The position numbers and the translations under genes are program-made. Shown in pieces: positions 5,825 through 33,841 of a stretch of DNA of 64,000 nucleotides (position 1 is the stretch's first letter; every line of letters begins with the position of its first letter). The stretch is from positions 3,712,001 through 3,776,000 of the forward strand of contig NZ_JAUALB010000001.1 in NCBI RefSeq assembly GCF_030345795.1. The letters are read 5' to 3'. Source of the stretch: Micromonospora sp. WMMA1363. Lineage in GTDB: Bacteria; Actinomycetota; Actinomycetes; Mycobacteriales; Micromonosporaceae. Under the pieces are notes generated by a model that searched no databases, was not told where the DNA came from, and saw only the letters and a list, made by a program, of their open reading frames with translations.

Positions 5825-5998
5825 ATGGCGAAGCCTGGAGGGAAGGCCGGAGCGGAACAATCCGCCCAAAGCTCATCACCGACCGTGGTGAGTGACGAAC
5901 GCGGCACCGTGGCCGCATCACAAGAGCACCGTTCCCGCCAGGCACGTCTACTGCACCACCGCGGCGCCGCCGGCCGCGACATGGGGAGGTTCCAGTGA
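5825..5998 (+). CDS. Possible 57-residue leader protein of the secretion-like operon
   Basis: A short reading frame begins with ATG at 5825, shortly downstream of the candidate promoter. Its stop TGA overlaps the GTG start of the next gene (GTGA, 5995-5998). That is the same coupling found at other junctions in this operon, which is the main reason to report it. The product is hydrophilic, rich in Ser, Ala, Gly, Arg and His, with no membrane segment or recognised motif. The frame also stays open upstream of the ATG. It could be a genuine small protein, a translated leader that couples the next gene, or chance. Function unknown. Confidence 0.35.
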   Translation: MAKPGGKAGAEQSAQSSSPTVVSDERGTVAASQEHRSRQARLLHHRGAAGRDMGRFQ

Positions 5999-6306
5999 TC
6001 GCCATCGAGCTGATGGAGACGGCGCCCGCCGCCGCCGACGCTCTCTCCACCCTGGCGTTGACGCCACTCGCCGAGCCGGCACCCAAGGGCATCGACACCG
6101 AGAACATCGTCACCTTCTTCGCCAGCAAGATCGCCCCGATCCTGCTGGCCGCCCTGGGAGTCATCTTCATCGGGCGGGCCAGCCGGGGAGAGATCTCCAA
6201 AGTGTTGACCAGCTCGGCGATCGCAATCGTCGGGTTAGCCTTCATCGCCGGGGCCGCCACCCTCTTCTTCGTCGGCGACTACCTGATCGACCTGATCTTC
6301 GAATAG
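5995..6306 (+). CDS. VirB2-like/TrbC-like small membrane protein of the secretion-like operon
   Basis: A 103-residue protein with two transmembrane helices (about 44-66 and 74-99) joined by a short positively charged loop (GRASRGEISK). That is the architecture of pilin-like VirB2/TrbC proteins and of small subunits in Gram-positive type IV secretion systems. The start is GTG at 5995 with a good ribosome-binding site (GGGGAGG, 5983-5989). It precedes PrgI/VirB3-like and VirB4-like genes, which supports the assignment. Sequence similarity is not visible to me beyond topology, so the family call is inferred from topology and position. Confidence 0.6.
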   Translation: MIAIELMETAPAAADALSTLALTPLAEPAPKGIDTENIVTFFASKIAPILLAALGVIFIGRASRGEISKVLTSSAIAIVGLAFIAGAATLFFVGDYLIDLIFE

Positions 6307-6319
6307 GCGCGGGCAGGAC

Positions 6320-6721
6320 ATGCGGCTGCGCACCGACGATGACATCTACCGGGCTCGCCTGGTCTACCTCGGGCCGCCCGGCTACACCCTTCCGGTCCAC
6401 CTCCCGTACGCCCAGTACGGGCTGTTCATGTTGCTCGTTCCCCTCTACATGTTCATCCACTGGTTGTTCACGTTGCAGGTCGAGCTCTTTCCCGCCTGGG
6501 AGATCGCGCTCGCCATCGTGACGACCTCGTTCGTCTTCCGGCACGTCGACCCGGACCGGCCGGCGCGCATGGTGATTCGCACCGCGCTGACCGACTGGCG
6601 ACGCACCCGGGAGCCGGCCGCCGAGCAGCGCGACCCCCGTCTGGTCGGCAGCCGGATCAGGATCCGAGAGGAACTTGGCATGACCGGGCAGGGCAACGAC
6701 ACGGGTGAGGCGGTCGCATGA
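6320..6721 (+). CDS. PrgI/VirB3-like membrane protein
   Basis: A 133-residue protein with two closely spaced helices (about 32-54 and 58-75) after a short N-terminal domain. A cytosolic C-terminal tail of about 55 residues follows. The pattern and the position directly before a VirB4 ATPase match PrgI-family proteins of Gram-positive conjugation systems, the counterpart of VirB3. The start ATG at 6320 has a GGCAGGA sequence just upstream. The stop overlaps the VirB4 start (ATGA, 6718-6721). In known systems the VirB3/PrgI protein docks the ATPase to the membrane; that role here is inferred. Confidence 0.7.
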   Translation: MRLRTDDDIYRARLVYLGPPGYTLPVHLPYAQYGLFMLLVPLYMFIHWLFTLQVELFPAWEIALAIVTTSFVFRHVDPDRPARMVIRTALTDWRRTREPAAEQRDPRLVGSRIRIREELGMTGQGNDTGEAVA

Positions 6722-9700
6722 GTCGCTCCTCCACGCCGGGATCTCCGGCCGCCCCACATGGTGACCGCACGCGTTCGTTCGACTACGCGGAGGTGGTCGA
6801 GGTGGACGAGGCCGTCCTCGACCCGGCCCTGGCCAGCACACCGGGCTACGGCGGGGTAGGCGTCTTCCAGGCTCCCCGCCCCCTGTCCCGGCGGGCGCCG
6901 ACGGAAGGCGCCCCGGCAGACGGCACGGACATCGACTCCCCGTTCCTCGATCTGTTCGGTGCGAACCGCCCGGCACGCTCCGCTCCCGCCCGGCCACCGG
7001 TACGCGAGCTGCCGACGATCCCGCAGCAGCCGGCCGCCGCCGAGCCGGCGGAACGGCGGCAACCGGCCGTCCGAGCTGCCCGGGTCGAGTCGGTTCAACA
7101 ACCCGCAACGCCGGCCGAACCGCCCACGCGGACCAGTGCACGGGCGGCCGACGACCAAGCGGCGCTCGCGCCGTCCCAGTCCGGTCGAGCCACCGGTCAG
7201 CGGCCAGCCACACCGTCGACGCCCTGCTCGTACGACGACGAGGTCGAGTCACCCGCGCGGTCGCCCCGGGTCCCGCACCAGGTCGGCGACCGCCTTCCCG
7301 CGCTCCGACTCCCGGCGGACCAACCGACCACGGCACCGGCACCGGCACCGGCACCGGCCGAGCCGAACGCGCACCGCGACTCCGAGCAGATACCCGAGCG
7401 GGCGGGCACCCGGGACGTGACGCCACGACAGCGGTCCGCCGGCCGCCCGGGCCGCCCCACAAAGCCAGTTCGGGTGAATGCACCAAGGATCAAGTTTGGC
7501 GACCGTGATCCAGCGGTCGAGCTGGCCATCACCGAAATCGCCGGGCATCTCACCTTCACCCCGAACACCGTCACCGCCTGGTACTGGCTGCCCGAGGTGC
7601 GCTGGGCGTTCCGGCCGGACGCCGAGCGGGAAGCACTGCTCTCGGCCATCTCCGAGCAGTACGCCGGGCTCGCCGGGTTCCGCCTGCACCTGCGGCGCAC
7701 CACCCGCCCGTTCCCGGCCGACGAATGGGCCCGCACCATCGACACGCACACCTCGGTGCCGCTGCCCGACGTGCCCGGCACACCCGGCTGGGGCGACCAT
7801 CTCGTGGCGGCGCAGCGGCACCTGCTGTCGGTCAACCACGCCGAGGGGCAGACGTACCTCGGGGTGACCTTCGCCCGGCGATCGTTGGGTGACTCGCTGA
7901 CGGAGCGGTTGCTGCGCACCTTCGGTCGGGGCGTAGCCGAGGGTGAACGGCGTAAGCTCGGCCGTACCGTCGAGCAGTTCGACGAGGTGCTGGGCGCCTT
8001 CGGCATGCGCGGGCGGCGGGTCACAGCCCAGGAACTGGAGTGGCTGCTCTACCGCTCGGTCGCCCTTTGCATGGCACCGCCCGGTCGGCTCTCCCCGGTC
8101 ACCGACGGGCGGTGGGAACGCGGCGACCTACTCGCCCTGACCGAGCAGGTGGAGCGCTACCGCACCCCGTACGGCTCCACGGTCAAGCTGGTCAATCGGA
8201 TGACCGGCGAGGAACGGCACGTCGCGGTGCTCGCCGTCGGTCGGATGGAGCCGCTGGAGATCCCCGAGCGGCACGAGCCCTGGCTACACTTCCACGAGCG
8301 GCTGCCCTGGCCGATGGAGCTCTCGAGCCGGGTCGACATCCTCGGCTCCGGCGACTCCTTCCGCAACCTGGAGCACCGGCTCCGGATGATCCGCTCCCAG
8401 CAGCTCGACTACGCCGAACACGGCATCGACGCGCCGCCCGAGCTGGAACGGCTCGCGAAACGGGCGCTCGTGATCGGCGACGAAATGACCACCGGGTTGC
8501 CCGTCGACTCCGCACGCGCGCACGGCTGGCACCGGATCGCGGTCGGTGGCCGGACGCGCGAGGAGTGTCTGGAACGCGCCCGGCGGCTGATCCAGCTCTA
8601 CTCCCGGGAACTGCGGATCTCACTACAGCATCCGAAGAACCAGGACTGGCTGGCCCGCGAGTTCATTCCCGGCGAGCCGATCGCCAACACCGGCTACGTC
8701 CGACGGATGCCCGTCAACCTCCTCGCCGCCGCCCTCCCGCAGGCCGCTTCCACCGTCGGCGACCGCCGCGGCGACCTGATCGGGCGGACGGCCGGCACCT
8801 GCCGCCGTCCGGTCTTCCTCGACCTGCACTTCCCGATGGAGGTCCGGGAGCGTTCGGGGCTCGCGGTCTTCGTCGCCGAACCGGGTGGCGGCAAGTCCAC
8901 CCTGCTCGGTGCCCTCGGCTATCTGGCGGCGCGGCGTGGTGTCCAGGTGACGCTGCTCGACCCGTCCGGCCCGCTCGCCCGGCTCTGCGCGATGCCCGAG
9001 CTGCGGCCGTACGCGCGCGTGCTGAACCTGACCGGCTCCGAGCACGGCACCCTCGCACCGTACTCGCTGATCCCCACACCGCTGCGCAGCGAGTTCGCAA
9101 GTGGCGCGGCAGGCGACCGGGAGTTCGAGATCGCCGTGTCCAACGCCCGCGCGGAGCGCCGGATGCTCGTGCAGGACATCTGCATGATGCTGGTGCCGCC
9201 GCAGGTGGCCCGGGAGGCGTCCACCGCCACCCTGTTCCGGCACGCCGTCCGCCAGGTGCCGGCCGAGGAGACGTCCACGCTGGACGACGTGGTCGCCTGC
9301 CTCGGACAGCTCGACGACCACGCCGGCAAGGAACTGGCCAACCTGCTGTTGGACACCGCCGAGATGCCGCTGGCCATGCTCTTCTTCGGCCGCCCGCCGG
9401 AGGGACTACTCGGCTCCGAAGCCGCGCTCACCGTGATCACCATGGCCGGGCTCCGCCTGCCCGACCTGAAGATCGAGCGTGAGTACTGGTCGGCCGAGGA
9501 GGCACTCGCCCTGCCCATGCTGCACACCGCCCATCGGCTGGCGGTACGACGCTGCTACGGCGGTTCGATGTCGTCCCGTAAGCTGGTCGGCCTCGATGAG
9601 GCGCACTTCATGGAGGGATGGCGCTCCGGCCGGTCGTTCCTGGTCCGACTCGCTCGTGACTCCCGCAAGTGGAACCTCGCCGCCCTGGTCGCCTCACAGA

Positions 9701-10050
9701 ATCCGAAGGACATCCTGGGCCTCGACGTGCAGAATCTGGTCTCCACCGTGTTCGTCGGCCGAATCGCCGAGGACGCGGAGATCGCCACCGAGGCTCTGCG
9801 GCTGCTGCGGGTCCCCGTCGACGACGGGTACGAGGCGACCCTCGCCTCCCTGTCCGCCGCCGACGCCACGTCGGCCGCCAGGCTGGGCTTCCGTGAGTTC
9901 GTCATGCGCGACGTCGACGGGCGGGTGCAGAAGGTCCGGGTCGACGTCTCCTACGTCGACCGGCTGCTCGACCACCTGGACACCACGCCGGCGGCGGTCG
10001 CCGCCGCGTCCGGGGCGCTGCCGACGGCAGCAGCGGATCTGGAGGCGTGA
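6718..10050 (+). CDS. VirB4/TraC-type ATPase of a type IV secretion-like system
   Basis: An 1110-residue hexameric-type ATPase predicted to energise substrate transfer or assembly at the cytosolic membrane face. The first ~250 residues are low-complexity, Pro/Ala/Arg-rich and probably disordered, with an (AP)n run near residue 210. A VirB4 N-terminal domain follows (~260-700). The ATPase core has Walker A AEPGGGKST near residue 725 and a DEAH-type Walker B (VGLDEAHF) near 956, then the ASQNPKD segment typical of VirB4/TraC proteins. Motifs look intact, so activity is likely. The start overlaps the preceding stop. The long disordered N-terminus is unusual among VirB4 proteins. Confidence 0.88.
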   Translation: MSRSSTPGSPAAPHGDRTRSFDYAEVVEVDEAVLDPALASTPGYGGVGVFQAPRPLSRRAPTEGAPADGTDIDSPFLDLFGANRPARSAPARPPVRELPTIPQQPAAAEPAERRQPAVRAARVESVQQPATPAEPPTRTSARAADDQAALAPSQSGRATGQRPATPSTPCSYDDEVESPARSPRVPHQVGDRLPALRLPADQPTTAPAPAPAPAEPNAHRDSEQIPERAGTRDVTPRQRSAGRPGRPTKPVRVNAPRIKFGDRDPAVELAITEIAGHLTFTPNTVTAWYWLPEVRWAFRPDAEREALLSAISEQYAGLAGFRLHLRRTTRPFPADEWARTIDTHTSVPLPDVPGTPGWGDHLVAAQRHLLSVNHAEGQTYLGVTFARRSLGDSLTERLLRTFGRGVAEGERRKLGRTVEQFDEVLGAFGMRGRRVTAQELEWLLYRSVALCMAPPGRLSPVTDGRWERGDLLALTEQVERYRTPYGSTVKLVNRMTGEERHVAVLAVGRMEPLEIPERHEPWLHFHERLPWPMELSSRVDILGSGDSFRNLEHRLRMIRSQQLDYAEHGIDAPPELERLAKRALVIGDEMTTGLPVDSARAHGWHRIAVGGRTREECLERARRLIQLYSRELRISLQHPKNQDWLAREFIPGEPIANTGYVRRMPVNLLAAALPQAASTVGDRRGDLIGRTAGTCRRPVFLDLHFPMEVRERSGLAVFVAEPGGGKSTLLGALGYLAARRGVQVTLLDPSGPLARLCAMPELRPYARVLNLTGSEHGTLAPYSLIPTPLRSEFASGAAGDREFEIAVSNARAERRMLVQDICMMLVPPQVAREASTATLFRHAVRQVPAEETSTLDDVVACLGQLDDHAGKELANLLLDTAEMPLAMLFFGRPPEGLLGSEAALTVITMAGLRLPDLKIEREYWSAEEALALPMLHTAHRLAVRRCYGGSMSSRKLVGLDEAHFMEGWRSGRSFLVRLARDSRKWNLAALVASQNPKDILGLDVQNLVSTVFVGRIAEDAEIATEALRLLRVPVDDGYEATLASLSAADATSAARLGFREFVMRDVDGRVQKVRVDVSYVDRLLDHLDTTPAAVAAASGALPTAAADLEA

Positions 10051-10051
10051 G

Positions 10052-11983
10052 ATGGCCGGGCCCCGGAGACGGACGACGACATTCCTGCTCGTCCTCGGCA
10101 TCCTGGCCGGGGCGACGATCAGCTGGCCGGCCGTCGGTACGGCAGCGGCATCGGCCGCCCCGCTGACCGCCCAGGCCCCGGGCGACCTCTGCACCACGCA
10201 GGAGTGGCAGGCCGACTTCCGCGCCTGCGTGACCAAGCTGAAGGAGGTCGCCGAGGACGACGTCAGGTGTCGGAACGCCCCGACTCCGACCGCCCCCGAC
10301 TCGGGGATCGCCGGATGGTTCGCGGCCCGTCCCGAGTCCGCGAAGCTGCCCGGCCCGAAGGGCTTCTACAGCGACTACGGCTACGCCGGTTACAGCTACA
10401 CCACGTACGACGTTGACGCCGGGTGTGCCACCGCCGTACTCCATCCCGACTACAAGTTCACCAACACCGTCGCGAACGGCGAATTCATGATCGCAACAGC
10501 GATCATCGGCGCCTCGAACGCGCTGCGGGAACGGGCCTGGGATCCGCGGACGATGTGGGGCTGGGCGGACCCGCTGGTGGACCAGGCGACCAAGGCCGTC
10601 TACCAGAAGGTGTTCAGCGTCTTCGGCATCATCACGCTCTGCGTGGTCGGCCTCTACCTGCTCTGGCGCTCCCGCCAGTCGGACATGAGCAACACGATGA
10701 CGACCGCGGGCTGGGCGCTGCTGGTCATGGTCGCGGTGACCGCCCTGGCCGCCTGGCCGGTGAAGTCGGCCAACATCGCGGACGGCACCCTGATCACCAC
10801 GCTGGGCGTCGTCCACGAAGCCGTCGGTCCCGCCCCGAAGGACACGCCACCGGACTTGTGCGACGATCCTAATCCCGCATCGTGTAGAGATAATCGACCG
10901 CCGGCGGTCCGGGCGAGCGACACGGCGACCGAGGCGATGCTGTATCGAAACTGGCTGCGGGGTTCGCTGGGCTCCGCCGACAGCGAAACGGCGAAAAAGT
11001 ACGGCCCCGCGCTGTACGACGCGAAGTCGCTCTCCTGGGAGGAGGCGGAGAAACTCCGCTCGAACCCGGCGACCCGGGAGGCGACCATCAAGGCAAAGCA
11101 GCAGCAGTGGGCCCGGGTCGCGCAGCAGATCCAGACGGAGGACCCGGAGGCGTACGAATACCTCCAGGGTGTCCGGGACATGGACCGCGTGGGCGCCGGG
11201 TTCATCGCGGTGTTCGCCGCGCTGCTCTTCGCCATGTTCGACCTGACCGCGTCGGTGCTGGTGCTGCTCGGCTTCCTGATCTTCCGGTGGGCGGTGATCG
11301 CCGCCCCCATCCTGGGCACGGTGGGGCTGCTGCGGCCGGCCAGCGCCGGCCTGCGCCGGCTGGGCAACGCCGTCGTCGCCGCCATCTTCAACATCGCCAT
11401 CTTCGGCACCGGCGCCGCGATCTACCTGTTCGCGGTGGACCTCATCATGAGCACGCCGACCCTGCCCGGCTGGTTGCAGGTCGTCCTGGTCTGGCTCTGC
11501 GGCGTGGTCGGCTGGCTGCTGCTCCGCCCGTACCGGCGGATCACCCAGCTCGGCGGCAAGGACAACAGCGAGGCGATCAGCTCCGCCGGCTCCTGGCACC
11601 GCCGGTTCTTCCGGGACATGCGCACGGCTGCCCGGCTCGACGTCGCCGAGCCCGGCGGCACCGCAGAGCCGGCGATGACGCGACGCCGGTCGGTCGTCGC
11701 GAAGCAAACCAGCCTGCGACCGGAGGCCCGCCTGGAGGATCCGGTGCGCTCCGACGATCGCGGCGGCCGGCCGGACGTACGCGAACGGCCCGCCGACGCT
11801 CCGGCGGCGGGGCGGTCGGCCGACGGTCGGCGACCGGTCACGCCTCGGCAGCGACGACAACCCGCCAACTGGACCGAGCCGGACGTCCCGGAGGAAAGCC
11901 CCTCCTTCGCGATCTACCGGCCAGGATCGACGGACGCCGCCCCCGCGCGCCACACCTCACGGATCCGCTCCGAGGCTCGGTGA
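10052..11983 (+). CDS. VirB6/TrbL-like polytopic membrane protein
   Basis: A 643-residue protein with an N-terminal signal-like helix (about 8-35) and an extracellular domain of about 150 residues containing several cysteines. A first pair of helices lies near 190-235, then a second hydrophilic region, then a cluster of four to six helices (about 385-500). The C-terminal ~130 residues are hydrophilic, Arg-rich and probably cytosolic. This layout is that of the large channel component (VirB6/TrbL/TcpH-like) of Gram-positive type IV systems. The ATG at 10052 lies one base after the VirB4 stop. The stop overlaps the next start (GTGA, 11980-11983). The assignment rests on topology and gene order. 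Confidence 0.65.
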   Translation: MAGPRRRTTTFLLVLGILAGATISWPAVGTAAASAAPLTAQAPGDLCTTQEWQADFRACVTKLKEVAEDDVRCRNAPTPTAPDSGIAGWFAARPESAKLPGPKGFYSDYGYAGYSYTTYDVDAGCATAVLHPDYKFTNTVANGEFMIATAIIGASNALRERAWDPRTMWGWADPLVDQATKAVYQKVFSVFGIITLCVVGLYLLWRSRQSDMSNTMTTAGWALLVMVAVTALAAWPVKSANIADGTLITTLGVVHEAVGPAPKDTPPDLCDDPNPASCRDNRPPAVRASDTATEAMLYRNWLRGSLGSADSETAKKYGPALYDAKSLSWEEAEKLRSNPATREATIKAKQQQWARVAQQIQTEDPEAYEYLQGVRDMDRVGAGFIAVFAALLFAMFDLTASVLVLLGFLIFRWAVIAAPILGTVGLLRPASAGLRRLGNAVVAAIFNIAIFGTGAAIYLFAVDLIMSTPTLPGWLQVVLVWLCGVVGWLLLRPYRRITQLGGKDNSEAISSAGSWHRRFFRDMRTAARLDVAEPGGTAEPAMTRRRSVVAKQTSLRPEARLEDPVRSDDRGGRPDVRERPADAPAAGRSADGRRPVTPRQRRQPANWTEPDVPEESPSFAIYRPGSTDAAPARHTSRIRSEAR

Positions 11984-12531
11984 CGGCCGTGCGACGGACG
12001 ATCGAATCCCTGCTCACCCGGGTCCTCCGGTCCCGGATCGGGATCGCGCTCGCGCTCGCCGTCGTGGTGTTCGGCGTGATCGGCACCGCCCGACTGGCCG
12101 CCGGCCCGTCGGATCCGGGGCTCAGCAACCGCCCGGACCGGCCGATCACCACGGTGCCGCCGACCGCCGGGGACGACGGGGCCATCGCCACGGAGCCGCC
12201 GCCCACACCGGTCACCCGGCCCGGTGAGCTGACGCCGGAGCAGGCAACCGACCGGTTCGTCGCAGCCTGGCGTGGGCGGCCGGGGCTCAGCCCCGAGCAG
12301 TGGCACGCCGGCCTGCGACCGCTCTCCACATTGGCACTGACCGAGAAGCTCGCCGGCGCGGATCCGGCGGGCGTCCCCGCCGGTCAGGTGACGGGCGGAG
12401 CGACAGTCCGACCGCGGACGGAGACCTTCGTCGAGGTGCTCGTGCCGTTCGACACCGGGCGACTCCGACTCGACCTGGTGGCACCCGACGGCCGGTGGCT
12501 GGTGGATGCGGTGGACTGGGAGCAGGAATGA
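11980..12531 (+). CDS. VirB8/TcpC-like single-pass membrane protein with NTF2-like domain
   Basis: A 183-residue protein with a short basic N-terminus, one membrane helix (about 19-38), a Pro/Thr-rich linker and a C-terminal domain of about 100 residues. That domain runs from TPEQATDRFVAAW to WLVDAVDWEQ. This is the arrangement of VirB8 and TcpC, whose periplasmic or extracellular domains have an NTF2-like fold and help assemble the secretion channel. The GTG start at 11980 overlaps the previous stop, and its own stop overlaps the next start (ATGA, 12528-12531). The fold call is from pattern and context, so moderate confidence. Confidence 0.6.
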   Translation: MTAVRRTIESLLTRVLRSRIGIALALAVVVFGVIGTARLAAGPSDPGLSNRPDRPITTVPPTAGDDGAIATEPPPTPVTRPGELTPEQATDRFVAAWRGRPGLSPEQWHAGLRPLSTLALTEKLAGADPAGVPAGQVTGGATVRPRTETFVEVLVPFDTGRLRLDLVAPDGRWLVDAVDWEQE

Positions 12532-13700
12532 GTGATCATGTAGCCCGGCCCCTCCGTCGTCCGCTTCGAGCCGGGGCGCTGGCCGCCGCGCTCGCCGCGG
12601 CCTTCACGCTGCTCTGCTGCACCGGTGGGGCCGGCGCCTTCTTCCTCACCGAGTTGGGCGGGACCGGTGGCGACGGGCTGCGGCTGGCGAGCCAGGACTG
12701 CACCGGCGACTTCCGCATCAAGATCACCGGTGAGATGCCCCGGATGTCGCAGTACGGGGAGATCCAGCTCCGCAACGCCGCGCGCATCGTCAAGGTCGGC
12801 CAGGAGCTGAAGGTCCCGCCCCGAGGGTGGGTGATCGCCGTGGCGACAGCGATGCAGGAATCACGGCTCCGCAACCTCGCCAACCCGACGGTGCCCGGTT
12901 CGCGGACCCAGCCGAACGAGGGCGTCGGCTCCGACCACGACTCGGTCGGCCTGTTCCAGCAGCGGGCAGGCTGGGGCACCGTCGCCCAGCGGATGACGCC
13001 CGAGTACGCCGCCGGCAAATTCTACGAGAAGCTGCTCCAGGTACCCGACTGGGAGCGAATCCCGTTGACCCAGGCGGCGCAGGCGGTGCAGATCAGCGCC
13101 TTCCCAGACGCGTACGCCAAGCACGAGATGCTCGCCTCGACCATCGTCAACGCGCTCGCCGGCGGAGCCGCCCGCACCGTCCCGGTCGACGGTGGGCAGG
13201 CCTGCGACGCGGCGGCGGCCGGGCGGGTCGCCGCCTCCGGGTGGACCGCTCCGATCCCCGGCGGAGTCGGCTCCGGCTTCCGCACCGCGGACCGGCCCGC
13301 GCACAACGGTGTGGACATCGCGGCACCGAAGGGCCTACCGATCCGAGCTGCTGCCACCGGACGGGTGCTGGTTTCCCGCTGCGACCCGGACCGGGCCGGT
13401 CAGGTGAGCTGCAAGGTGGACGGCTGGCCGGGTAAGGGCGGCTGCGGCTGGTTTGTCGACATCCTGCACGCCGGCGGGATCGTGACCCGCTATTGCCACC
13501 TGGTCGACAAACCCCTGGTCCGGGTCGGCCAGGTGGTGCAGGCGGGGGAGAAGATCGGCCAGGTGGGCAGCAGCGGCAACTCTTCCGGGCCGCACCTGCA
13601 CTTCGAGGTGCACACCGACGGCGACCGGAGCAGCCGTGGCGCGATCGATCCGGTGCCGTTCATGCGGGATCGGGGGGCACCGCTGCGAGGCACGGAATGA
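12528..13700 (+). CDS. Cell-wall hydrolase with transglycosylase-like and M23 (LytM) peptidase domains
   Basis: A 390-residue exported enzyme expected to open peptidoglycan for the secretion channel, a VirB1-type role. A membrane anchor or signal lies at about 14-40. A lysozyme/transglycosylase-like domain covers about 75-215, with the probable catalytic glutamate in ATAMQESRL (Glu111) and the active-site-like SVGLFQQR. The M23 domain covers about 245-375, with zinc ligands in HNGVDIA (His259, Asp263) and PHLHFEV (His356, His358). All expected zinc residues are present, so the peptidase is probably active. Start and stop codon arrangement places it in the same operon. Confidence 0.85.
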   Translation: MSDHVARPLRRPLRAGALAAALAAAFTLLCCTGGAGAFFLTELGGTGGDGLRLASQDCTGDFRIKITGEMPRMSQYGEIQLRNAARIVKVGQELKVPPRGWVIAVATAMQESRLRNLANPTVPGSRTQPNEGVGSDHDSVGLFQQRAGWGTVAQRMTPEYAAGKFYEKLLQVPDWERIPLTQAAQAVQISAFPDAYAKHEMLASTIVNALAGGAARTVPVDGGQACDAAAAGRVAASGWTAPIPGGVGSGFRTADRPAHNGVDIAAPKGLPIRAAATGRVLVSRCDPDRAGQVSCKVDGWPGKGGCGWFVDILHAGGIVTRYCHLVDKPLVRVGQVVQAGEKIGQVGSSGNSSGPHLHFEVHTDGDRSSRGAIDPVPFMRDRGAPLRGTE

Positions 13701-13713
13701 GGCGCCGACCGCC

Positions 13714-14307
13714 ATGACCGATCCGCTGCCCGACCCCTTCGCCGGCCAGCCGGACTGGGCGCCGCTGCCGCCCCACCCGATCGAGATCGTGCCGGCCAGC
13801 GCCCACGTGAACCTGCGCGGGCGTCGGGTGCTCGTCGGGCTGCCCGGCCTGGGCTGGCGGGGCGACCTCCGCGCGGACGACCGCGTGGTGCAGGGCAGCC
13901 GCACCTACGTACCGGTCATCCCGGAGCACGAGTGGTACCGCGCGGAGGCCGACCAGGTGGAGGTCTTCGCGCCGCTGGTGCCCGTGGACCGGGTCTGGGT
14001 GGAGACCGTCGGTGAGCGCCGGCCGCCGACCGGCGGGGAGGCTGACCGGCTCGTGTCGCTGGACGCGCCGGCGCATCGCGCCCCCACCCCCGTTTTCGAG
14101 GCGGACGCCGTCGCGGGCCGACGGGTCGTGCACGTGGCCGACTCGGTTGAGCACCGCGACCTGCGGGCGGTCACCGAGACCTACTCCGGCGCCGACGGGG
14201 ACATCTGCGTCCGGATCGCCCAAGAGTTCGAGTGGTACCGCTGGGCCTGGCGCGGCCAGTCACCCACCACTCTCGAGGTCCCGGTTCACCTCCTGTGGCT
14301 CGAATGA
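13714..14307 (+). CDS. Unknown soluble protein with an internal duplication
   Basis: A 197-residue protein without signal peptide or membrane helix, thirteen bases after the cell-wall hydrolase gene and apparently the last gene of the secretion-like operon. It contains two related segments. Each has a (R)DLRA motif, then about 25 residues, then E-x-EWYR, then a V-rich strand ending W-x-E: DLRADDRV...EHEWYR...VWVE around residues 50-97, and DLRAVTET...EFEWYR...LWLE around 150-197. I do not recognise a family. The position suggests a substrate, adaptor or regulator of the system, but nothing in the sequence proves it. Confidence 0.65.
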   Translation: MTDPLPDPFAGQPDWAPLPPHPIEIVPASAHVNLRGRRVLVGLPGLGWRGDLRADDRVVQGSRTYVPVIPEHEWYRAEADQVEVFAPLVPVDRVWVETVGERRPPTGGEADRLVSLDAPAHRAPTPVFEADAVAGRRVVHVADSVEHRDLRAVTETYSGADGDICVRIAQEFEWYRWAWRGQSPTTLEVPVHLLWLE

Positions 14308-14311
14308 GTGC

Positions 14312-14887
14312 TCAGCTCACCTTGCGACCGCCGCAGACTCGCCAATCCTTCTCGTTTCGAACGACATCGAAGATCCAGTCCTCCCGGCGGCTACTTCGCG
14401 GCTGGCCGTTTGCGGAACTCGAGATGCTGAGCGTCGTAGCAACCGACTCACCCCGCTGGTTCTCCGACCGGTTAAGCGGGCCCCAGCTGACCCTAACATC
14501 CACGCCAAAGCTCGCCTCCCGCTGTTCAACCTCGGCGCGTAGCGCCGTCAATGCGGCCAAGTCCACAGGTTCTTCGCTGCAAATGTAGAGGGTAGCCCGG
14601 ATATCGTTGCGGTCCACGAGAAAGGCACGCAGGTAGTTGTCCACGACCACGTCGGGGGCGCTGCGGTCGGGGGCGGTCGCGCGGTCGTACAGCAGATAGC
14701 CGGCCGCCAGCCCGCTCAGGAAAAGGGCCGTCAGCATCGCCGCGGTCACGGTCAGAATCGTGCGGACCCGGCGGCGCGGCGGGTCCGGTGCCGACGTGGG
14801 GGGCGGGGGCCCCAACTGGTCGGAGGGGGGTCGCTGGGCCGGTACCCGGGAGACCTGGGAACCGGCGGGGGGCTGCACTGATTCCAC
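14312..14887 (-). CDS. Membrane-anchored protein with NTF2-like/DUF4878-like extracellular domain
   Basis: A 191-residue protein with a Pro-rich cytosolic N-terminus (~1-42), one membrane helix (about 43-66) and a ~115-residue outer domain. That domain starts APDVVVDNYLRAFL and ends DWRVCGG, and carries two cysteines that could pair. The layout resembles small lipoprotein-like NTF2 domain proteins and echoes the VirB8-like protein of the adjacent operon. It is transcribed convergently to that operon and divergently from the FtsK-like gene. The start is GTG at 14887. Function unknown; association with the secretion-like locus is by position only. Confidence 0.6.
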   Translation of the reverse strand: MESVQPPAGSQVSRVPAQRPPSDQLGPPPPTSAPDPPRRRVRTILTVTAAMLTALFLSGLAAGYLLYDRATAPDRSAPDVVVDNYLRAFLVDRNDIRATLYICSEEPVDLAALTALRAEVEQREASFGVDVRVSWGPLNRSENQRGESVATTLSISSSANGQPRSSRREDWIFDVVRNEKDWRVCGGRKVS

Positions 14888-15073
14888 CCCCTGAGGCTAA
14901 CCGCTGCTGGCGGGAGACCCAATGCCCCAGATTTCGCGGATCGTGACGGCCCCATACCCATCGGTGACATCTGCGACAACACCGGTGCAGCACCGCCGCA
15001 CCTCCGCCGAGGGCGGGTCATCCTGGGTTACCGTCTCTGCGCGGGGAGGGCTTGCCGACCTCGCGTAGAGGGG

Positions 15074-17692
15074 GTGGACACGGTGGCCGGTCCGAGGACA
15101 CGGGCGAGCCGGGCCGCCGCCCTGCACCGCCGGGCCGCCGCCACTGCGAGCGCCGCCGCCGATGTCCTCGACGGTATCCGTCCCGCACCCGCCGACCACG
15201 TCCGCCAGTACGAGCTGGCCGACCGACTGCGCAGCGCCGCCGCACTGCTCGCCCCGGACTGGGCGGGTGCGGCGCTGGACACGCTCACTCCGTCCACTCC
15301 CGCCGGCGAGAACCCGCCACCGTTCGTCCGCGTCGGTACAGCGGCACCGCTCGACGACGCCCGGTTCCCCGCCCTGGTCCCGCTGATCGGCACGGGGAAC
15401 CTCGCGATCGACACCGACGCCCGGGATCCCCGGGTGGCGGGCCTGCTTCGGGCCGTACTACTGCGCCTGCTGGCAGCCACGCCCGCCGGTTCGCTGCTGG
15501 TCCGCGCGGTGGACGCGACCGGTACGGCGCTCGCCCCGTTCGCGACGCTCGCGGACGCCGGGATCCTCCCGCCGCCGGCGACGGACGTGGCCGGTCTACG
15601 CGCGGTACTGTCCGAGGCGGAGCAGTGGGTGACGCCCGGCGCGGGCGGTCGCCGCCGTCACGACCGGGTACTCCTGCTGGTGATCGCCGTGCTACCCGAG
15701 CCGACCGGCCGCACCGACCTGGCCCGGATCGAGGCGCTCGCCGAGCAGGGCCGGTTGAACGGGTTGCATCTCCTGGTGGCGGGCAGGCCGCCCGCCTGCC
15801 CGCCGGTGCCCAGAGCCGCGCTGCTCGCGATCCGCACCGCGTACGCCCTGCTCGGGGATCCACCGGACGCGTCGTTCGCCGGCCCGGGCCGCCATCCGGT
15901 CGACCTCCCGGGCGGCCCGCACGGTGCGCCGCCCCCCGGACCGCCCGGCAGCACGGCCGACGGCCCGTGCAGCGTGGATCCGCCGGGGGGCCTGAACTCT
16001 CCGGTCTTCATCGAGCCGGATCCGCCGGCCGACCTCGTCGAAACGGTCTGCCGCCGGCTCGCCGACCAGGTGGAAGCCGGTTCGCGGCTGGCCCTGGCCG
16101 ACCTGCTGCCGGACCAGTGCGAGCCGCTGTGGACGGCGAGTTCGGTCGACGGCCTGTCGACGACGGTGGGCGACGCGAGCGGTCGGCCCGTCTCGCTGGG
16201 CTTCACGGAGCTGACCCCGCACTGGCTGGTCAGTGGCCGTTCCGGCGCCGGCCGGTCGACTTTCCTCACCACCGCCCTGCTCGGCCTGACGGCCCGGTAC
16301 GGTCCCAGCGAACTGGTCCTCTACCTGGCCGACCTCGGCGTCGGTGAGTCCTTCGTGGAGTTTCTGCAGACCGAGCGGGACCGGTCGTGGATTCCCCAGG
16401 TGCGGGCCGCCGCGATGGCGACCGACCGGGAGTACCTACTGGATCTGTTCGACCTGTTGGCGACGGAGGTGCGCCGCCGGGAGGACGCCGGCGCGCGGGC
16501 CGGTGGCCAACGCTTCGCCGAGTTGCGGCAGCACCGGGAGCTGCCGCGGATCGTCTGCGTGGTCGACAATCTCCCGGTGCTCCTCACCGGCCGGGACCGG
16601 ATCGCCACCGAGGCGGCCGCCCGGCTTGACGCCCTCGCCCGGGCTGGCCGTTCGTACGGGGTGCACCTGCTGCTGGCCGGCGAAGGTGACCTGGGCCTGG
16701 GGACGCGGGCGGATCGGGACTCGGTCCTCGGCCAGTTCCCGGTGCGGGTGGCGCTGCCCGGCGGCGGCGCGGTGCTCGAGCCGACCAACGATTCCGCCGC
16801 CGGGCTGCCGGTGGGCAGCGCGGTCGTGAACACCGCCGGCGGGCTGGGCGGCCCCCGGGGCGCCATCCGCGGGCACGAGCGAACGGTCCGTTTCCCCGAC
16901 CCGCAGGACCATCCCGACGTGGTGGAGTCGTTGCGACACCGGCTGTGGGACGCCCGCCCGCTGCGCTCCGCGCCACCGGTTGTCTTCGCCGGGTACGCAC
17001 GCCCGGCGCTGCGCAACGATCCCCGCTACCGCGCGGCGGTCGCCGACGGAGCACCGGGACCGGCGGCTCTGCTGGGCCGGGCACTGGACGTGACCCGGTC
17101 GACGGTGACGGTGCCGCTGGGCCCCTCTCCGGGCCGCAACCTGGCCGTACTGGGGCCGGGCCCGGAGGCGGCTGGGCTTCTGGTCACCGCCGCCCGCAGC
17201 GTCGCCGCTCACCACCCGCCCGGTGCCGCTCGATTCGTGGTGGTGGCTCCGGAGAACGACTTCCGGAGGCTCGCCGGTGCGCTCGCCGCCGAGCTGGCCG
17301 GTCGGCATCCGGTCGAGGCCGTCGACCGCACTGGTCTACTCGACGCCCTCGACGCGACCGGGCCGACCTACCTCGTCGACTTCGAGCTGGACGCCGGGCA
17401 GCTCCCGCCGGACCGGCTGCGCACCCTGCTGCGGGAGGGGCCGCCGGCCGGGCGGCACCTGCTGGGCCGTTGGCGCACCGTTGCACCGTTCGCGTCTCTG
17501 CTGGAGCCCGAGGGTGAGGTGGCCAAGCTGGCTGCGGTCGCCGTGGTCGACGTGCCCGGGGCACAGCTCGCGACCGTCTTCGGCCGGACGGTGGACTGGC
17601 GGCCCCGGGCCGCCCGGGCGATGCTCTGGGACGGGCCCGGTGAGCAGGGCACCGTGCTGGTTCCGTTCGACGAGGAGGGTGTGCCGGCATGA
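15074..17692 (+). CDS. FtsK/SpoIIIE-family (EccC-like) protein with degenerate nucleotide-binding motifs
   Basis: An 872-residue cytosolic protein, probably two FtsK/EccC-like modules. In the first, the Walker A position reads GRSGAGRST (about 387-395), with arginine replacing the essential lysine. The Walker B position is VCVVDNLP (about 494), with Asn instead of Glu. The segment AGRSYGVHLLLAG matches the conserved GRSLGVHLLLAS region of EccC. The second module (~670-870) is more decayed, with GPGPEAAG at the Walker A position. The GTG start at 15074 has a purine-rich site (GAGGGG) just upstream. It may be a coupling-protein relative that has lost hydrolysis or acts as a scaffold. The stop overlaps the next gene by four bases. 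Confidence 0.75.
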   Translation: MDTVAGPRTRASRAAALHRRAAATASAAADVLDGIRPAPADHVRQYELADRLRSAAALLAPDWAGAALDTLTPSTPAGENPPPFVRVGTAAPLDDARFPALVPLIGTGNLAIDTDARDPRVAGLLRAVLLRLLAATPAGSLLVRAVDATGTALAPFATLADAGILPPPATDVAGLRAVLSEAEQWVTPGAGGRRRHDRVLLLVIAVLPEPTGRTDLARIEALAEQGRLNGLHLLVAGRPPACPPVPRAALLAIRTAYALLGDPPDASFAGPGRHPVDLPGGPHGAPPPGPPGSTADGPCSVDPPGGLNSPVFIEPDPPADLVETVCRRLADQVEAGSRLALADLLPDQCEPLWTASSVDGLSTTVGDASGRPVSLGFTELTPHWLVSGRSGAGRSTFLTTALLGLTARYGPSELVLYLADLGVGESFVEFLQTERDRSWIPQVRAAAMATDREYLLDLFDLLATEVRRREDAGARAGGQRFAELRQHRELPRIVCVVDNLPVLLTGRDRIATEAAARLDALARAGRSYGVHLLLAGEGDLGLGTRADRDSVLGQFPVRVALPGGGAVLEPTNDSAAGLPVGSAVVNTAGGLGGPRGAIRGHERTVRFPDPQDHPDVVESLRHRLWDARPLRSAPPVVFAGYARPALRNDPRYRAAVADGAPGPAALLGRALDVTRSTVTVPLGPSPGRNLAVLGPGPEAAGLLVTAARSVAAHHPPGAARFVVVAPENDFRRLAGALAAELAGRHPVEAVDRTGLLDALDATGPTYLVDFELDAGQLPPDRLRTLLREGPPAGRHLLGRWRTVAPFASLLEPEGEVAKLAAVAVVDVPGAQLATVFGRTVDWRPRAARAMLWDGPGEQGTVLVPFDEEGVPA

Positions 17693-18411
17693 GCCGCTCC
17701 CGTACCCGCGCCACGGGCCCTGGACGGCAACGGGTCGCGGCAGACCCCGCAGCCGCCGGGGTCGATCCCGATCCGGTCGCCGTGGCCTGGACCGGCTATC
17801 TCGCCGCGGCCCGCCAGCTCGACGGGGTTCGCCGGGACGCGGCCGTCGCCGCCGGTGAGCAGGCGCGGGCGGTGCAGACCGCTCGTGCGGAGTTGGCCAT
17901 GGTACGCGCCCGTCTGGCCAGGCAGGAGGCACGGCTGCGGGAGGCGGGCGTACCACCGATCTCGCTGGTGCCGACGCCACCGGAGCTGTCGGAGGCGACC
18001 CGGTCCATGGCGAACAGTCCGACGGCGGTGCTGGCCGCGCTGCGCAGCGCCGGCGACCGGGCGGAGGCGGCGGACGCCGCGCTGGCCGCCCGCGGGCTGG
18101 TCGGGGCGGCTGGCTGGCCGGCTGCGGCCCGCAACCTCCTGGTGTACGCGCCGCTGGCCCTCGTGGTGCCGCTGATCCAGTTGGTGGTGTTCGTCGCGAC
18201 CGGTCCGGGACCGGTGACCGGCGCCGCACTCATCTGCGGCCTGCCGATGCCGGCGGTGGCGTTCGTGGCGGGCTGGTTGGCGGTCGGCCGGCTCTTTCCA
18301 CCGGCCGCCGGCGGGCGGGTGGACCGCACCACACGGCTGGGTGGGTTGGTCAGCCTGGTTCCGGCGGTTCTGGTCAGCGGCGCGCTGCTGCTCGTGCTCC
18401 TGTCTGGTTGA
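17689..18411 (+). CDS. Coiled-coil membrane protein coupled to the FtsK-like gene
   Basis: A 240-residue protein. The N-terminal ~100 residues are Ala/Arg/Glu-rich and probably form a coiled coil (QTARAELAMVRARLARQEAR near 60-80). Three to four membrane helices follow, at about 145-172, 176-200 and 215-238. The ATG start overlaps the FtsK-like stop (17689-17692), so the two are translated together and probably interact. I do not recognise a family. In type IV and type VII systems small coiled-coil membrane proteins often tether the ATPase; that is a suggestion only. Confidence 0.65.
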   Translation: MSRSRTRATGPGRQRVAADPAAAGVDPDPVAVAWTGYLAAARQLDGVRRDAAVAAGEQARAVQTARAELAMVRARLARQEARLREAGVPPISLVPTPPELSEATRSMANSPTAVLAALRSAGDRAEAADAALAARGLVGAAGWPAAARNLLVYAPLALVVPLIQLVVFVATGPGPVTGAALICGLPMPAVAFVAGWLAVGRLFPPAAGGRVDRTTRLGGLVSLVPAVLVSGALLLVLLSG

Positions 18412-28360: not shown

Positions 28361-28406
28361 GACCGTGCCCGGGGCCCGCTCAACCGAGCAGCCCCCGGGC
28401 ACGGTC
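28361..28406. terminator. Perfect 14-bp-stem hairpin between ppa and eccD
   Basis: GACCGTGCCCGGGG (28361-28374) pairs perfectly with CCCCGGGCACGGTC (28393-28406), with an 18-base loop. The right arm is inside the last codons of eccD, whose stop lies in the loop at 28380-28382. It probably terminates both convergent genes. Confidence 0.6.
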
Positions 28407-29783
28407 GTACAGGTCGAGCACCGCGCAGGCGACCGGGACGACGGAGACCACGAGGGTGGTGTCGGCCAGGTCGGCGATCCGGCCGACGTACGGGGAGACC
28501 GGGCGCCGGGCGTAGGTGGTACCGGCCGCGACCGTGACCAGCCCCAGCGCCAGGCCAGCGATGGTCAACACGAGCAGACCGCCCGGGCCCGACCGGTCGG
28601 CGAGCACCGCGCCGAGCACGGCGTAGCCGGCCAGACCGGCGAGCACGGCGGGCACCCGATGCCGGACGGCCACGAAGAGCCGGGCCCGTAGCAGCAGGAC
28701 GGTGGCGGCGACGCCGACCAGCACCCGCCCGGCGACCCCACCGGCCAACCCGAGCAGCACCACGGCGAAGACGACCAGCACGGCGTGCCCGAGGAGCATC
28801 CCGGTGAGCATCTCGTCGGTTCGCGCCACCGCCGCGTGGACGCGCTCGCGATCCGGCAGGTCCCGGACCCGGTCGAGGTCGGAGGTGGGTGCACCGGACG
28901 GCAGGGTGGTCGGCGGTAACGGCACCCTGCCGAGCCGGATCGCCACCAGCGGGATCGCCCCCACCGCGAAGACCAGCACGCAGAGCAGGACCGCCGCGGC
29001 GCCAGCCGGGTCGAGCAGCATCCCGGCGACCGCCGCCACCGCCCCGGCGAGACCCACCACCGCGCCGGCGACGAAGACCCGGACTCGGCTCGCCACGCCG
29101 ACCAGGGCGAGGATCGACGCGAGCAGCAGCGCCGTCGCACCGGCGAGCAGTTCGGGTACGCCGAGCCAGCGCAGCCCCGGCACCACGCCGACCGGATCTC
29201 CGCTGCTGACCGCGAGCGCGCCGGCGATGGCGGCGTACGGCAGTGCGTACCCGCCCAGGGTGGCACCCGCCACGGCGTCCCCGTACGCCCGTGATGCGGC
29301 TGCCGCGGCGAGGGTGAGCAGCAGGGCGACCACGGCCGCGACCGGCCAGCCACCGCGGTCACCTGGACCACCGACGAGTACGGCGAGCAGCCCGACGGCC
29401 AGCGGTACGGCGGCACTGGCCAGGGCCGCGATCCGGGTGGCACCCGCAGACCAGGCGCCGCCGCGCCGCCGCGCCCCGTCCGCGATCGCCTCGACGACGT
29501 CGTCGTACTCCAGTTCCGGCCACTGCGTACGCGCCGGCAGTAGGTGCAGCACCTCGCCGTCGCGGATGCCCTGGGGCAGCAGGGGCGCGGCGGTGGCCAG
29601 CACGGCCCCGTCGGCGCGCCGCAGGACCCAGCCGCCGTGCCGCTCCCCGTCGTCGGCGAGCCCGACGCCGGCGTGCCGCAAGACCTCGGGCAGCAGCTCG
29701 GCCAACGGAACCTGCTCCGGCAGGGCCACGTCCAGCCGCCGTTGGGGCGCGTTGATGGTGACCCGGGCCAACCCGATCGTCAT
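28380..29783 (-). CDS. eccD: Type VII secretion integral membrane protein EccD
   Basis: Channel-forming core component of an ESX/type VII secretion system. 467 residues: an N-terminal ubiquitin-like domain (about 1-85, beginning LARVTINAPQRRLDVALP) followed by about eleven transmembrane helices from residue ~105 to the end. The order of a YukD-like domain then eleven helices is diagnostic of EccD. ATG at 29783 with GGAG upstream. It is divergent from eccC across a 101-bp spacer. The C-terminal codons form one arm of a terminator hairpin. Confidence 0.9.
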   Translation of the reverse strand: MTIGLARVTINAPQRRLDVALPEQVPLAELLPEVLRHAGVGLADDGERHGGWVLRRADGAVLATAAPLLPQGIRDGEVLHLLPARTQWPELEYDDVVEAIADGARRRGGAWSAGATRIAALASAAVPLAVGLLAVLVGGPGDRGGWPVAAVVALLLTLAAAAASRAYGDAVAGATLGGYALPYAAIAGALAVSSGDPVGVVPGLRWLGVPELLAGATALLLASILALVGVASRVRVFVAGAVVGLAGAVAAVAGMLLDPAGAAAVLLCVLVFAVGAIPLVAIRLGRVPLPPTTLPSGAPTSDLDRVRDLPDRERVHAAVARTDEMLTGMLLGHAVLVVFAVVLLGLAGGVAGRVLVGVAATVLLLRARLFVAVRHRVPAVLAGLAGYAVLGAVLADRSGPGGLLVLTIAGLALGLVTVAAGTTYARRPVSPYVGRIADLADTTLVVSVVPVACAVLDLYDRARGLLG

Positions 29784-29884
29784 CGACCGATCTCCATATC
29801 GAGGGGTGTTGGTGGCTGCGCGGACGACAGGACTCTACCTACGATGAGCCAGGCTCGGATCATCCAGCACGGCCAGGAGGTCGG

Positions 29885-32800: not shown

Positions 32801-33841
32801 CTGTCGTACGGGGTGCACGTCGTGGCGACCGCCGTGCGGTGGCTGGACCTCCGGCCGGCGATCCGGGACCTCTTCGGCTCCCGGTTGGAGTTGCGGCTCG
32901 GGGAACCGGCTGACTCGCTGGTCGCCCGTCGGGCCGCGGCCAACGTGCCGGAGAAGACACCCGGCCGGGGTGTCACCGCGGAGAGGCTGCACTTCCTCAC
33001 CGCGCTGCCGCAGCTGACCGCCGGTGCGGACACCGCCGACCTGGTCAGGCGGGTGGCCGCCGGCTGGCGCGGGCCGACCGCCCCGCCGGTCCGGCTGCTG
33101 CCACCGGTGTTGCCGTACGCCGATCTGGACGTCACCGCCGCCACCGGGCTGCGGATCCCGGTCGGGGTCGCCGAGGCCGATCTACGTCCGGTGGTGCTGG
33201 ACTTCGCGACCGAGCCGCACTTCGTGGTCTTCGGCGACGCGGAGTGTGGCAAGTCGTCCTTCCTCCGCGCGCTGGCCACCTCGATCATGACCCGTTTCAC
33301 CCCCGAGCAGGCCCGGATGATCCTGGTCGACTACCGGCGCAGCCTGGTGGACCTCACCGAGGCGGTGCACGTCATCGGCTACGGCACCGCCGACACGCAC
33401 ACCACCGAGCTGCTGGAGTCGGCCGCGGGCTACCTCCGGGCCCGGGGCCCGGGCCCGGAGGTCACCCCCGCCCAGTTGCGGGAGCGCTCCTGGTGGCATG
33501 GCCCGGAGCTGTTCGTGCTGGTCGACGACTACGACCTGGTCGCCAGCGGTCCGGCGAATCCGTTGCGGACGCTGGACGAACACCTCCCGCACGCACGGGA
33601 CGTCGGCCTGCACGTGGTGCTCGCGCGTCGGTCGGGCGGCGCGGGACGGGCGCAGTACGAGCCGGTCGCGCAACGGCTGCGCGAGCTCTCCACCGCCGGG
33701 TTGGTGATGGCGGGCAGTCCGGACGAGGGCGCGCTGGTCGGTCCCGCGCGTCCCGGGCCGCTGCCTCCGGGACGTGGGCGGCTGGTCACCAGGCGGGAGG
33801 GCGTACGCCTGGTCCAGCTGGCCCACCTGCCGCCACCATGA
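29885..33841 (+). CDS. eccC: Type VII secretion ATPase EccC (EccCa and EccCb fused)
   Basis: Motor ATPase of ESX secretion, recognising WXG100 substrates. 1318 residues: two N-terminal membrane helices (about 40-60 and 65-84) and three FtsK/SpoIIIE domains. Their Walker A motifs are GATGSGKSE (about 483), GAPQSGKST (about 834) and GDAECGKSS (about 1116). Domain 1 has a full Walker B (LLLVCDEFSE). Domains 2 and 3 have VVDGWA and LVDDYD, lacking the catalytic glutamate, as is usual for EccC. A TACGAT hexamer at 29840 may be its -10 element. mycP follows 96 bases downstream. Confidence 0.95.
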   Translation: MSTVVIKRPARRPAPEIPVGELPVEAPPEIPPVTGGRWQQLLLVLPMLGGTVAMAMMFGRGGGTYSYVIGGMFGLSSLAMLVTSWGNAAGGPKKAEMMAARREYLRHLTGLRRRVRETAGRQRAGLYYRHPDPGRLWSTVDSHRVWERRPADPDFAVARVAIGPQTLATPLVPPVTRPLEELEPMTAGALRRFLDAHSVVPDLPVALSLRSFARVHIRDTAAGPGSPPAAAQALARALLTQLAVFHAPDELLIAVCTGPERRLTWEWVKWLPHAHHPARTDALGPIRLVSSAATELEGLLDEVLGSRSRFSPAGPATDGPHVVVVLDGGDLGGATDLAGESGIDAVTVIDLETPPPRLLDRYTLLLELRAGRLHSHSAEGHAEVGAADRLDLADAEAVARRLAPLRPATAMRGGDAAPGADLGLLDLLGLGDPESFTAERGWTPRPPRDRLRVPIGVGTDGGAVELDLKESAQDGMGPHGLLIGATGSGKSELLRTLVLGLAATHSSEQLNFVLVDFKGGATFASFDRLPHTAAVITNLADALPLVDRMVDAINGELVRRQELLRHAGNFASVRDYERARAGGTPLAPLPSLLLVCDEFSELLSAKPDFIDLFVQIGRLGRSLGVHLLLASQRLEEGRLRGLDTHLSYRIGLRTFSALESRTVLGVPDAHELPRSPGHGYLRSGTDPLVRLRAAYVSGAVRQPATAPGRDASGAARVLTFTSHLVPVPEPIGPPASPTAEDESDTTLLELLVGRLAGQGPPAHQVWLPPLGPPPALDELLGPAAVDPARGLTVGNPELHGALRVPVAAVDKPFEQRRDLLWLSLDGAAGHVAVVGAPQSGKSTALRTLICALALTHTPAEVQVYCLDFGGGGLAALRELPHVGGVAGRADPTAVRRTVGEVTTLLADRERRFADLGVESMTAWRQRRAALAGAGQPAADPFGDVFLVVDGWATLRGEYDDLEPSITDLATRGLSYGVHVVATAVRWLDLRPAIRDLFGSRLELRLGEPADSLVARRAAANVPEKTPGRGVTAERLHFLTALPQLTAGADTADLVRRVAAGWRGPTAPPVRLLPPVLPYADLDVTAATGLRIPVGVAEADLRPVVLDFATEPHFVVFGDAECGKSSFLRALATSIMTRFTPEQARMILVDYRRSLVDLTEAVHVIGYGTADTHTTELLESAAGYLRARGPGPEVTPAQLRERSWWHGPELFVLVDDYDLVASGPANPLRTLDEHLPHARDVGLHVVLARRSGGAGRAQYEPVAQRLRELSTAGLVMAGSPDEGALVGPARPGPLPPGRGRLVTRREGVRLVQLAHLPPP

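Follow-up and report, generated by a model that had tools for sequence, protein, structure and literature searches.

A chromosomal type IV secretion-type operon in the folate cluster of Micromonosporaceae with homologues on linear plasmids

A chromosomal channel operon related to plasmid systems

The window analysed here, i.e. 64,000 nucleotides of the Micromonospora sp. WMMA1363 genome (6.48 Mb in 20 contigs; contig NZ_JAUALB010000001.1, positions 3,712,001 to 3,776,000), carries between folP and folE a plus-strand operon of seven genes, here named A to G (5995–14307), whose products include a VirB4 ATPase and further proteins resembling parts of a type IV secretion system (T4SS). On balance, we favour the reading that A–G encode a host-owned, chromosome-fixed channel of T4SS type and of linear-plasmid lineage, which was domesticated and now works as an exporter or as the assembler of a structure. 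Since the channel set looks complete, is found mostly at one chromosomal place and comes without the DNA motor of the plasmids, the data suggest an ancient domestication for a different task, and we infer that its cargo is protein rather than DNA.

The order A–B–VirB4–VirB6–VirB8–peptidoglycan hydrolase is shared with small linear Streptomyces plasmids, a Nonomuraea plasmid and pRHL3 of Rhodococcus jostii, except that A is not recognised in the Nonomuraea plasmid and E not in pRHL3. A search of 72,556 plasmid records with the VirB4 query returned 287 records; among the 40 that were listed, the best VirB4 proteins show 31–37 % identity and belong to Nonomuraea, Streptomyces, Pseudonocardia and Rhodococcus. 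Six loci were fetched (Streptomyces NZ_CP029542, NZ_CP050694, NZ_AP018367 and NZ_CP109057, Nonomuraea NZ_CP107854 and pRHL3), and three of them, i.e. one each from Nonomuraea (L001) and Streptomyces (L002) as well as pRHL3 (L003), were compared by BLAST. Counterparts in the same order were found for all six of A–F in L002, for B–F in L001 and for A–D and F in pRHL3, with VirB4 at 32–37 % identity (E at most 1.1e-107), and according to profile searches A–G are complete in L002 and in three further Streptomyces plasmids. The plasmid homologues are presumed to be transfer operons. In contrast to the window, they are not fixed in a chromosome, each of the six loci has an additional gene annotated with an FtsK/SpoIIIE domain, which is taken to be the DNA motor, and the hydrolase is annotated as C40/NlpC-P60 rather than M23 in five of the six.

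Components of the channel

Genes A–F are closely spaced, the gaps from A through G being 13, −4, 1, −4, −4 and 13 bp. The VirB4 ATPase is encoded by gene C (6718–10050, plus strand; 1110 amino acids). It matches PF12846 above the cut-off (E 1e-23), the NCBIfam family TcpF far below the cut-off (E 1.8e-19) and, by profile, the solved VirB4 structure 4ag5 (E 2.2e-7). A preliminary description of this region, made from the sequence alone, had reported intact Walker motifs in this protein, which holds well beyond the window: [AS]EPGGGKS and LDEA are kept in all 37 family loci fetched for comparison, and Walker A and B are also intact in all 68 named loci of a wider contig scan (58 of them additional to the 37). 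Among the 120 nearest VirB4 relatives listed, those with a name are from Micromonospora or Verrucosispora, with core identities of 95 % or more. A tree built from 86 ATPase domains unites the 38 Micromonosporaceae rows in a single clade (100/100).

Gene E (11980–12531, plus strand; 183 amino acids) encodes one transmembrane segment and an NTF2-like domain. Its predicted model supports a periplasmic domain of VirB8 fold, in agreement with the role first proposed for it; plasmid homologues were found by BLAST at E 2e-9 and 3e-5, and the median identity to the window protein is 43 %. A cell-wall hydrolase, as expected of a T4SS, is provided by gene F (12528–13700, plus strand), i.e. a lytic transglycosylase joined to an M23 endopeptidase behind one N-terminal transmembrane segment. 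The M23 domain matches PF01551 at E 9.8e-26, the F profile matches a muramidase at E 7.5e-26 as well as M23 enzymes, and plasmid homologues were found by BLAST at E 2e-12 to 7e-35. Residues E111, H259, D263, H356 and H358 are invariant in 11/11 aligned sequences and, going by the motifs, are presumably catalytic.

A, B and D are assigned putative VirB2, VirB3 and VirB6 roles from the order of the genes, the topology of the proteins and their plasmid homology. Gene A (5995–6306, plus strand; 103 amino acids) is VirB2-like by position and topology, with two hydrophobic segments that are both predicted to span the membrane. It has no Pfam match; homologues at the matching place on plasmids were found by BLAST at E 0.001 (L003) and 0.005 (L002) and none in the Nonomuraea plasmid L001, and the A profile matches five of the six plasmids (E 1e-6 to 1e-3). 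Gene B (6320–6721, plus strand; 133 amino acids) encodes a VirB3/PrgI-like membrane protein with plasmid homologues at E 1e-5 to 2.5e-11 and a median identity to the window of 83 % over 34 family loci; its match to EccE (E 0.008) is far below the cut-off. Gene D (10052–11983, plus strand; 643 amino acids) encodes a polytopic, VirB6-like protein with about seven hydrophobic segments and plasmid homologues at E 9e-22 to 1e-50. Both B and D are collinear with and homologous to plasmid proteins, with no match to a characterised VirB3 or VirB6. No credible relative was found in the PDB for any of the three proteins A, B and D.

Gene G (13714–14307, plus strand) encodes a soluble protein of 197 amino acids, which is composed of two repeats of a new domain of about 65 residues, aligning with each other at E 1.2e-7; the domain is doubled in the Micromonospora window and single in forms from Nocardioides. 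It gives a weak SH3/Tudor-like predicted model, and its median identity to the window is 61 %. While G had at first been regarded as specific to the lineage, it turned out to be a partner of the T4SS elsewhere, too: it matches exactly four plasmid records at E 0.01, all of them VirB4-bearing Streptomyces plasmids, and occurs in Nocardioides. In four genomes, G is retained although unlinked.

The preliminary description also let the block begin at 5825. The open reading frame (ORF) at this position has 57 codons and is present in only 1/37 family loci, so that the true operon start is probably 5995 or 6013. Apart from this, all the genes described at that stage were found on the strands given.

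Distribution and inheritance

In a sample of 41 Micromonosporaceae genomes from 40 genera, PF12846 was matched in 39; the other two are fragmented assemblies, one 69 % complete with 1080 contigs and one 94 % complete with 780. Among the matching genomes, G023 is set apart by its sole VirB4 (L077), which is of a different type, so that the ortholog is present in 38/41. Besides the window, 37 loci were fetched. In 27 of these, folP lies close upstream, and one more near a contig end has folE–ftsH downstream, i.e. at least 28 stand at the folate cluster, where the window's block is flanked by folK–folB–folP on one side and folE–ftsH on the other. Of the remainder, three are on contigs too short to tell and six lie elsewhere (L066–L069, L072, L073), one of the latter grouping with Stackebrandtia (Glycomycetaceae). 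The expectation that the same gene set would recur between folE and folP in many genera is thereby borne out. By tblastn, A, B, E and F were each detected in 34 of the 37 loci, D in 36 and G in 29, part of the misses being due to short contigs. In three genera (L049, L070, L071), folP and folB are inverted relative to the arrangement elsewhere, adjoining folK and the operon.

A contig scan yielded 445 VirB4 relatives. Among the best 80 that were kept, 68 are from Micromonosporaceae, Stackebrandtia or unassigned metagenome-assembled genomes (MAGs), ten of them coinciding with the 37 loci above, and 12 from Nocardioidaceae, Kineosporia or unassigned Actinomycetes. In the 49 of the 68 loci that exceed 20 kb, A–F are present without exception (49/49), G in 48, folP in 47 and folE in 33; the named genera include Micromonospora, Salinispora, Actinoplanes, Dactylosporangium, Asanoa, Plantactinospora, Phytohabitans, Planosporangium, Actinocatenispora and Rugosimonospora.

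Based on the window and the 26 of the 37 loci with all genes needed (27 rows), VirB4 distances correlate with those of FolP+FolB+FolK (r 0.77; as high in 0/2000 permutations), the mean VirB4 distance being half that of the Fol proteins. Because the VirB4 distances track those of the neighbouring Fol proteins, inheritance of the operon looks vertical. In comparison with the window, VirB4 has a median identity of 86 % (37 loci), folP of 72 % (27) and ftsH of 82 % (9). Judging from dN/dS ratios against ten hand-picked Micromonospora loci (0.06–0.34 for A–G, 0.28 for I and 0.40 for J, the two accessory genes described below, 0.26 for folP and 0.16 for folE), the operon is under purifying selection.

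Motor, relaxase and mobility genes

The motor of plasmid L002 was used as a query in 12 family genomes, i.e. 11 operon-bearing genomes and G023. No plasmid-type FtsK motor was found in any of the 12, the best matches reaching only E 1.5e-10 to 4.9e-6, compared with 1e-218 and 7e-38 for a further pair of plasmids. Ten of these best matches are in open frames of 818–974 codons and the others in frames of 1724 and 1344, which we take from their size to be FtsK and EccC. Within about 10 kb, relatives of the motor or of the plasmid-type ParA were absent from all 49 longer named loci. A motor or coupling protein of the plasmid kind is therefore missing from what was searched, VirD4-type proteins lying outside the genome-wide search.

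In the window, Pfam revealed no relaxase, integrase, transposase or replication domain among the 49 ORFs scanned (these leave some bases uncovered), no tRNA was found, and no direct repeats of 20 bases or more flank the block. The GC content per kb over the block (0.69–0.77) is like that of the surroundings. Both the host-like composition and the lack of mobility genes noted at the outset are thus confirmed for the window. Neither an integrase, attachment repeats nor a variable site was found here, yet 6/37 family loci lie elsewhere. Genome-wide, where relaxases were searched as TrwC only, a TrwC relaxase is present in 9/41 family genomes including that of the window, where it is on contig C4 and not on the window's contig; in 29 of the 38 operon-bearing genomes TrwC was not found, other relaxase families being outside this search. 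On contig C4 of the window's genome (G000), about 38 kb separate the TrwC relaxase from a weak match to the VirB4 family (50421–50693 and 88483–89667), perhaps as parts of an integrated element.

By MOB-suite, five of the six plasmids are typed as 'non-mobilizable' and pRHL3 as 'mobilizable, MOBP'. Since five of six plasmids with a homologous channel are thus also 'non-mobilizable', the missing linked relaxase is weak evidence. The absence of a relaxase beside the operon, as first described, stands, but it carries less weight than it was given, all the more so with TrwC elsewhere in the genome.

Accessory genes and neighbourhood

Three further genes follow the operon. Gene H (14312–14887, minus strand) encodes an NTF2-like membrane protein and is a lineage-specific accessory, as had been supposed: tblastn matches are found in 26/37 family loci (median identity 38 %), and none by profile in the related loci L169–L180 and L128. 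Gene I (15083–17692, plus strand) encodes an FtsK/EccC-like accessory protein that matches PF01580 (E 5.5e-14) and, below the curated cut-off, EccCa (E 1.1e-15). It was considered as a homologue of the plasmid motor and rejected (E 0.45). The degenerate motif ascribed to this coupling-type ATPase is found in the window, where Walker A reads GRSGAGRS with Arg in place of Lys; among relatives (52 loci), however, the motif varies, with Lys in 15, Arg in some and the pattern not found in 31. Gene J (17689–18411, plus strand; 240 amino acids), whose start overlaps the end of I, encodes three C-terminal hydrophobic segments and has no family match in Pfam or NCBIfam.

The window also contains a type VII secretion locus (28380–35302), roughly 10 kb away from the T4SS genes, with an EccD-like gene (minus strand), an EccC-like gene of 1318 amino acids with three FtsK stretches (plus strand) and a subtilase (plus strand), the latter presumably of mycosin type. 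Among A–J themselves, there is no EccB/C/D/E set with a WXG100 protein; only I is EccC-like, and A–F are not recognised parts of a type VII (ESX) system.

Related operons in other actinomycetes

The A–G block is conserved in Nocardioides (VirB4 72–78 % identical between most species), with flanks varying by species, e.g. a type I restriction system (L171) or an Eco57I-type methylase (L178). Four loci from Nocardioides and Marmoricola (L171, L173, L178, L179) are placed differently from one another; their neighbours are restriction systems, a serine recombinase or a YobI-like NTPase, which would suit operons that are still mobile or that stand in a defence-rich spot. The operon flanks are common to all three Kineosporia species, and in a Propionibacteriales MAG (L169) a sister operon lies between ruvB-like and secD-like genes. 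Motor or ParA relatives were found in none of L169–L180 and L128.

A survey of the class covering 148 genomes gave VirB4-family matches at 1e-9 or better in 45, i.e. 14 from family f14, 13 from f16, 12 from f17 and six from others; these are counts of matching genomes and not family frequencies (20 of the 103 non-matching genomes were listed). The C profile matches 13 loci from f14 at E 9e-73 to 2e-80. Among them, A is matched in four, E in six and, weakly, D in 12; B, F and G are matched in none. The VirB4 operons of f14 (L109–L120, L148) and f17 (L122–L127, L145–L147) are unlike both that of the window and the Streptomyces cmd operon.

With the Gram-positive conjugative T4SS of pCF10, pIP501 and the TcpF/TcpC type, the window shares VirB4 (TcpF being below the cut-off), the VirB8 fold (PrgL, TraM) and a cell-wall hydrolase; unlike these systems, it has no coupling protein that we could find and no linked relaxase, and the distances fit vertical inheritance. 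A survey of actinobacterial integrative and conjugative elements required an integrase, a coupling protein, VirB4 and a relaxase jointly (PMC3218068), so that such an operon would have been missed.

Alternative explanations

It may be asked whether the channel, whose parts have homologues in presumed conjugation systems, still moves DNA, e.g. as a mating apparatus, encoded in the chromosome, that passes chromosomal DNA between hyphae and relies on the housekeeping FtsK or on a motor that escaped recognition. Five of the six plasmid relatives are without a typed relaxase, so a relaxase may be dispensable, and FtsK-like frames, labelled by size, occur in every genome searched. Still, none of the 12 genomes has a close counterpart of the FtsK-type gene annotated at each of the six plasmid loci, nor is there such a motor or a ParA relative near any of the 49 longer loci, and we regard DNA transfer as unlikely. 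A host helper channel that mobilises resident elements with their own relaxase and motor would fit the TrwC gene on contig C4 and those of the other TrwC-bearing genomes; since most operon-bearing genomes lack a TrwC match, this hardly explains the family-wide conservation, and it appears rather improbable. If the block were what is left of a conjugative element or plasmid that once integrated and is now decaying, this could account for both the homology to plasmid operons and the missing motor, but VirB4 is open with intact motifs at every locus examined, selection is purifying, many genera share the site and flanking repeats are absent, which leaves this as hardly credible.

The Streptomyces cmdABCDEF operon (SCO4126–4131) is likewise chromosomal, combines a VirB4-like ATPase with membrane proteins and is kept in the Streptomyces species compared in the source (PMC2782261), where its deletion is described to cause aberrant branching, poor sporulation and 6–8 % anucleate spores, with no significant change in the transfer of an SLP2-derived plasmid (data not shown there), and where K90 of CmdB is required for complementation. 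In an insertion-mutant study, cmdBCDEF are reported, once more, as genes whose disruption increases actinorhodin production (PMC6585502). The ten f16 proteins that we fetched would be CmdB, because seven of them have their Walker A lysine at position 90, like K90 of CmdB; eight are 466–481 amino acids long. That the window's operon is simply the Micromonosporaceae version of cmd is nonetheless very improbable. In cmd, the gene for the polytopic protein precedes that of the ATPase, no hydrolase match was obtained in the ten cmd-type loci, and profiles of A–J match none of them at E 0.01 (provided that these loci are indeed cmd). Profile–profile comparison of three cmd genes with A–G reached a probability of 8.7 % at best, with shallow profiles, so that homologues of all six Cmd proteins were not recovered and no gene-by-gene homology was detected save that both ATPases belong to PF12846. 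CmdB-type proteins have about 471 amino acids in comparison with 1110, and the VirB4 tree places the ATPases of cmd and f17 across a supported branch. The cmd operon, reported to be needed for normal sporulation (PMC2782261), would rather be the closest functional precedent, by analogy.

Several observations weigh against a channel fixed and domesticated in the host. Sister operons in Nocardioides stand at differing sites, one (L173) with a serine recombinase at a distance of some 3 kb, and the channel lineage may therefore still move. The genus of G023 has neither the VirB4 ortholog nor G; its other-type VirB4 (39 % identical to L121 and 34 % to L139) adjoins F-like (46 %) and E-like (42 % over 73 residues) genes, so that the channel can be swapped, with L077 as a possible exchange of its front half. 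Moreover, G was not found in two of 12 operon-bearing genomes tested (G035, G040), nor beside the three Kineosporia operons. The part of the motor could also fall to ordinary FtsK, to EccC-type ATPases or to a protein that does not resemble the motor of the plasmids.

Proposed function and implications

We nevertheless favour the domesticated channel. This view was put forward in the preliminary description and is supported by the folate site shared across the family, purifying selection and distances that fit vertical inheritance, and strengthened by the lack of a plasmid-type motor in the 12 genomes, whereas protein export is what we infer. An ancestor of the Micromonosporaceae, together with the Glycomycetaceae, would have acquired a channel of linear-plasmid type and fixed it in the chromosome. 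F would open the peptidoglycan, while B, D and E would form the membrane channel, with VirB4 docking beneath to power assembly and export; A may be a pilin-like or channel subunit and the cytosolic G an adaptor or substrate-docking module. Because there is no dedicated DNA motor, the load would more likely be protein, or the machine may itself be a structure of the surface or the septum. As a first and doubtful guess at the phenotype, by analogy with cmd, the operon may act in hyphal growth or in sporulation. It is tempting, if somewhat speculative, to suppose that the whole family made a motor-less linear-plasmid channel into a core protein-exporting or surface/septal machine of hyphal development, with G as a shared cytosolic module, and that this path was taken repeatedly in Actinomycetes, i.e. 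also by cmd and in two further families.

In the literature searched, a conserved chromosomal T4SS channel without a plasmid-type motor is undescribed in this major antibiotic-producing family, apart from a remark of 2014 on a virB4 of M. lupini amid proteins of unknown function (PMC4182475), a gene that was not compared with the window's VirB4. G is a candidate new component of the plasmid systems, too. Since the channel is accompanied by a motor on plasmids but lacks it on chromosomes, it offers a natural contrast for asking what a VirB4-only T4SS does and, if the exporter reading is true, it would represent a new secretion route in Micromonospora, Salinispora and Actinoplanes.
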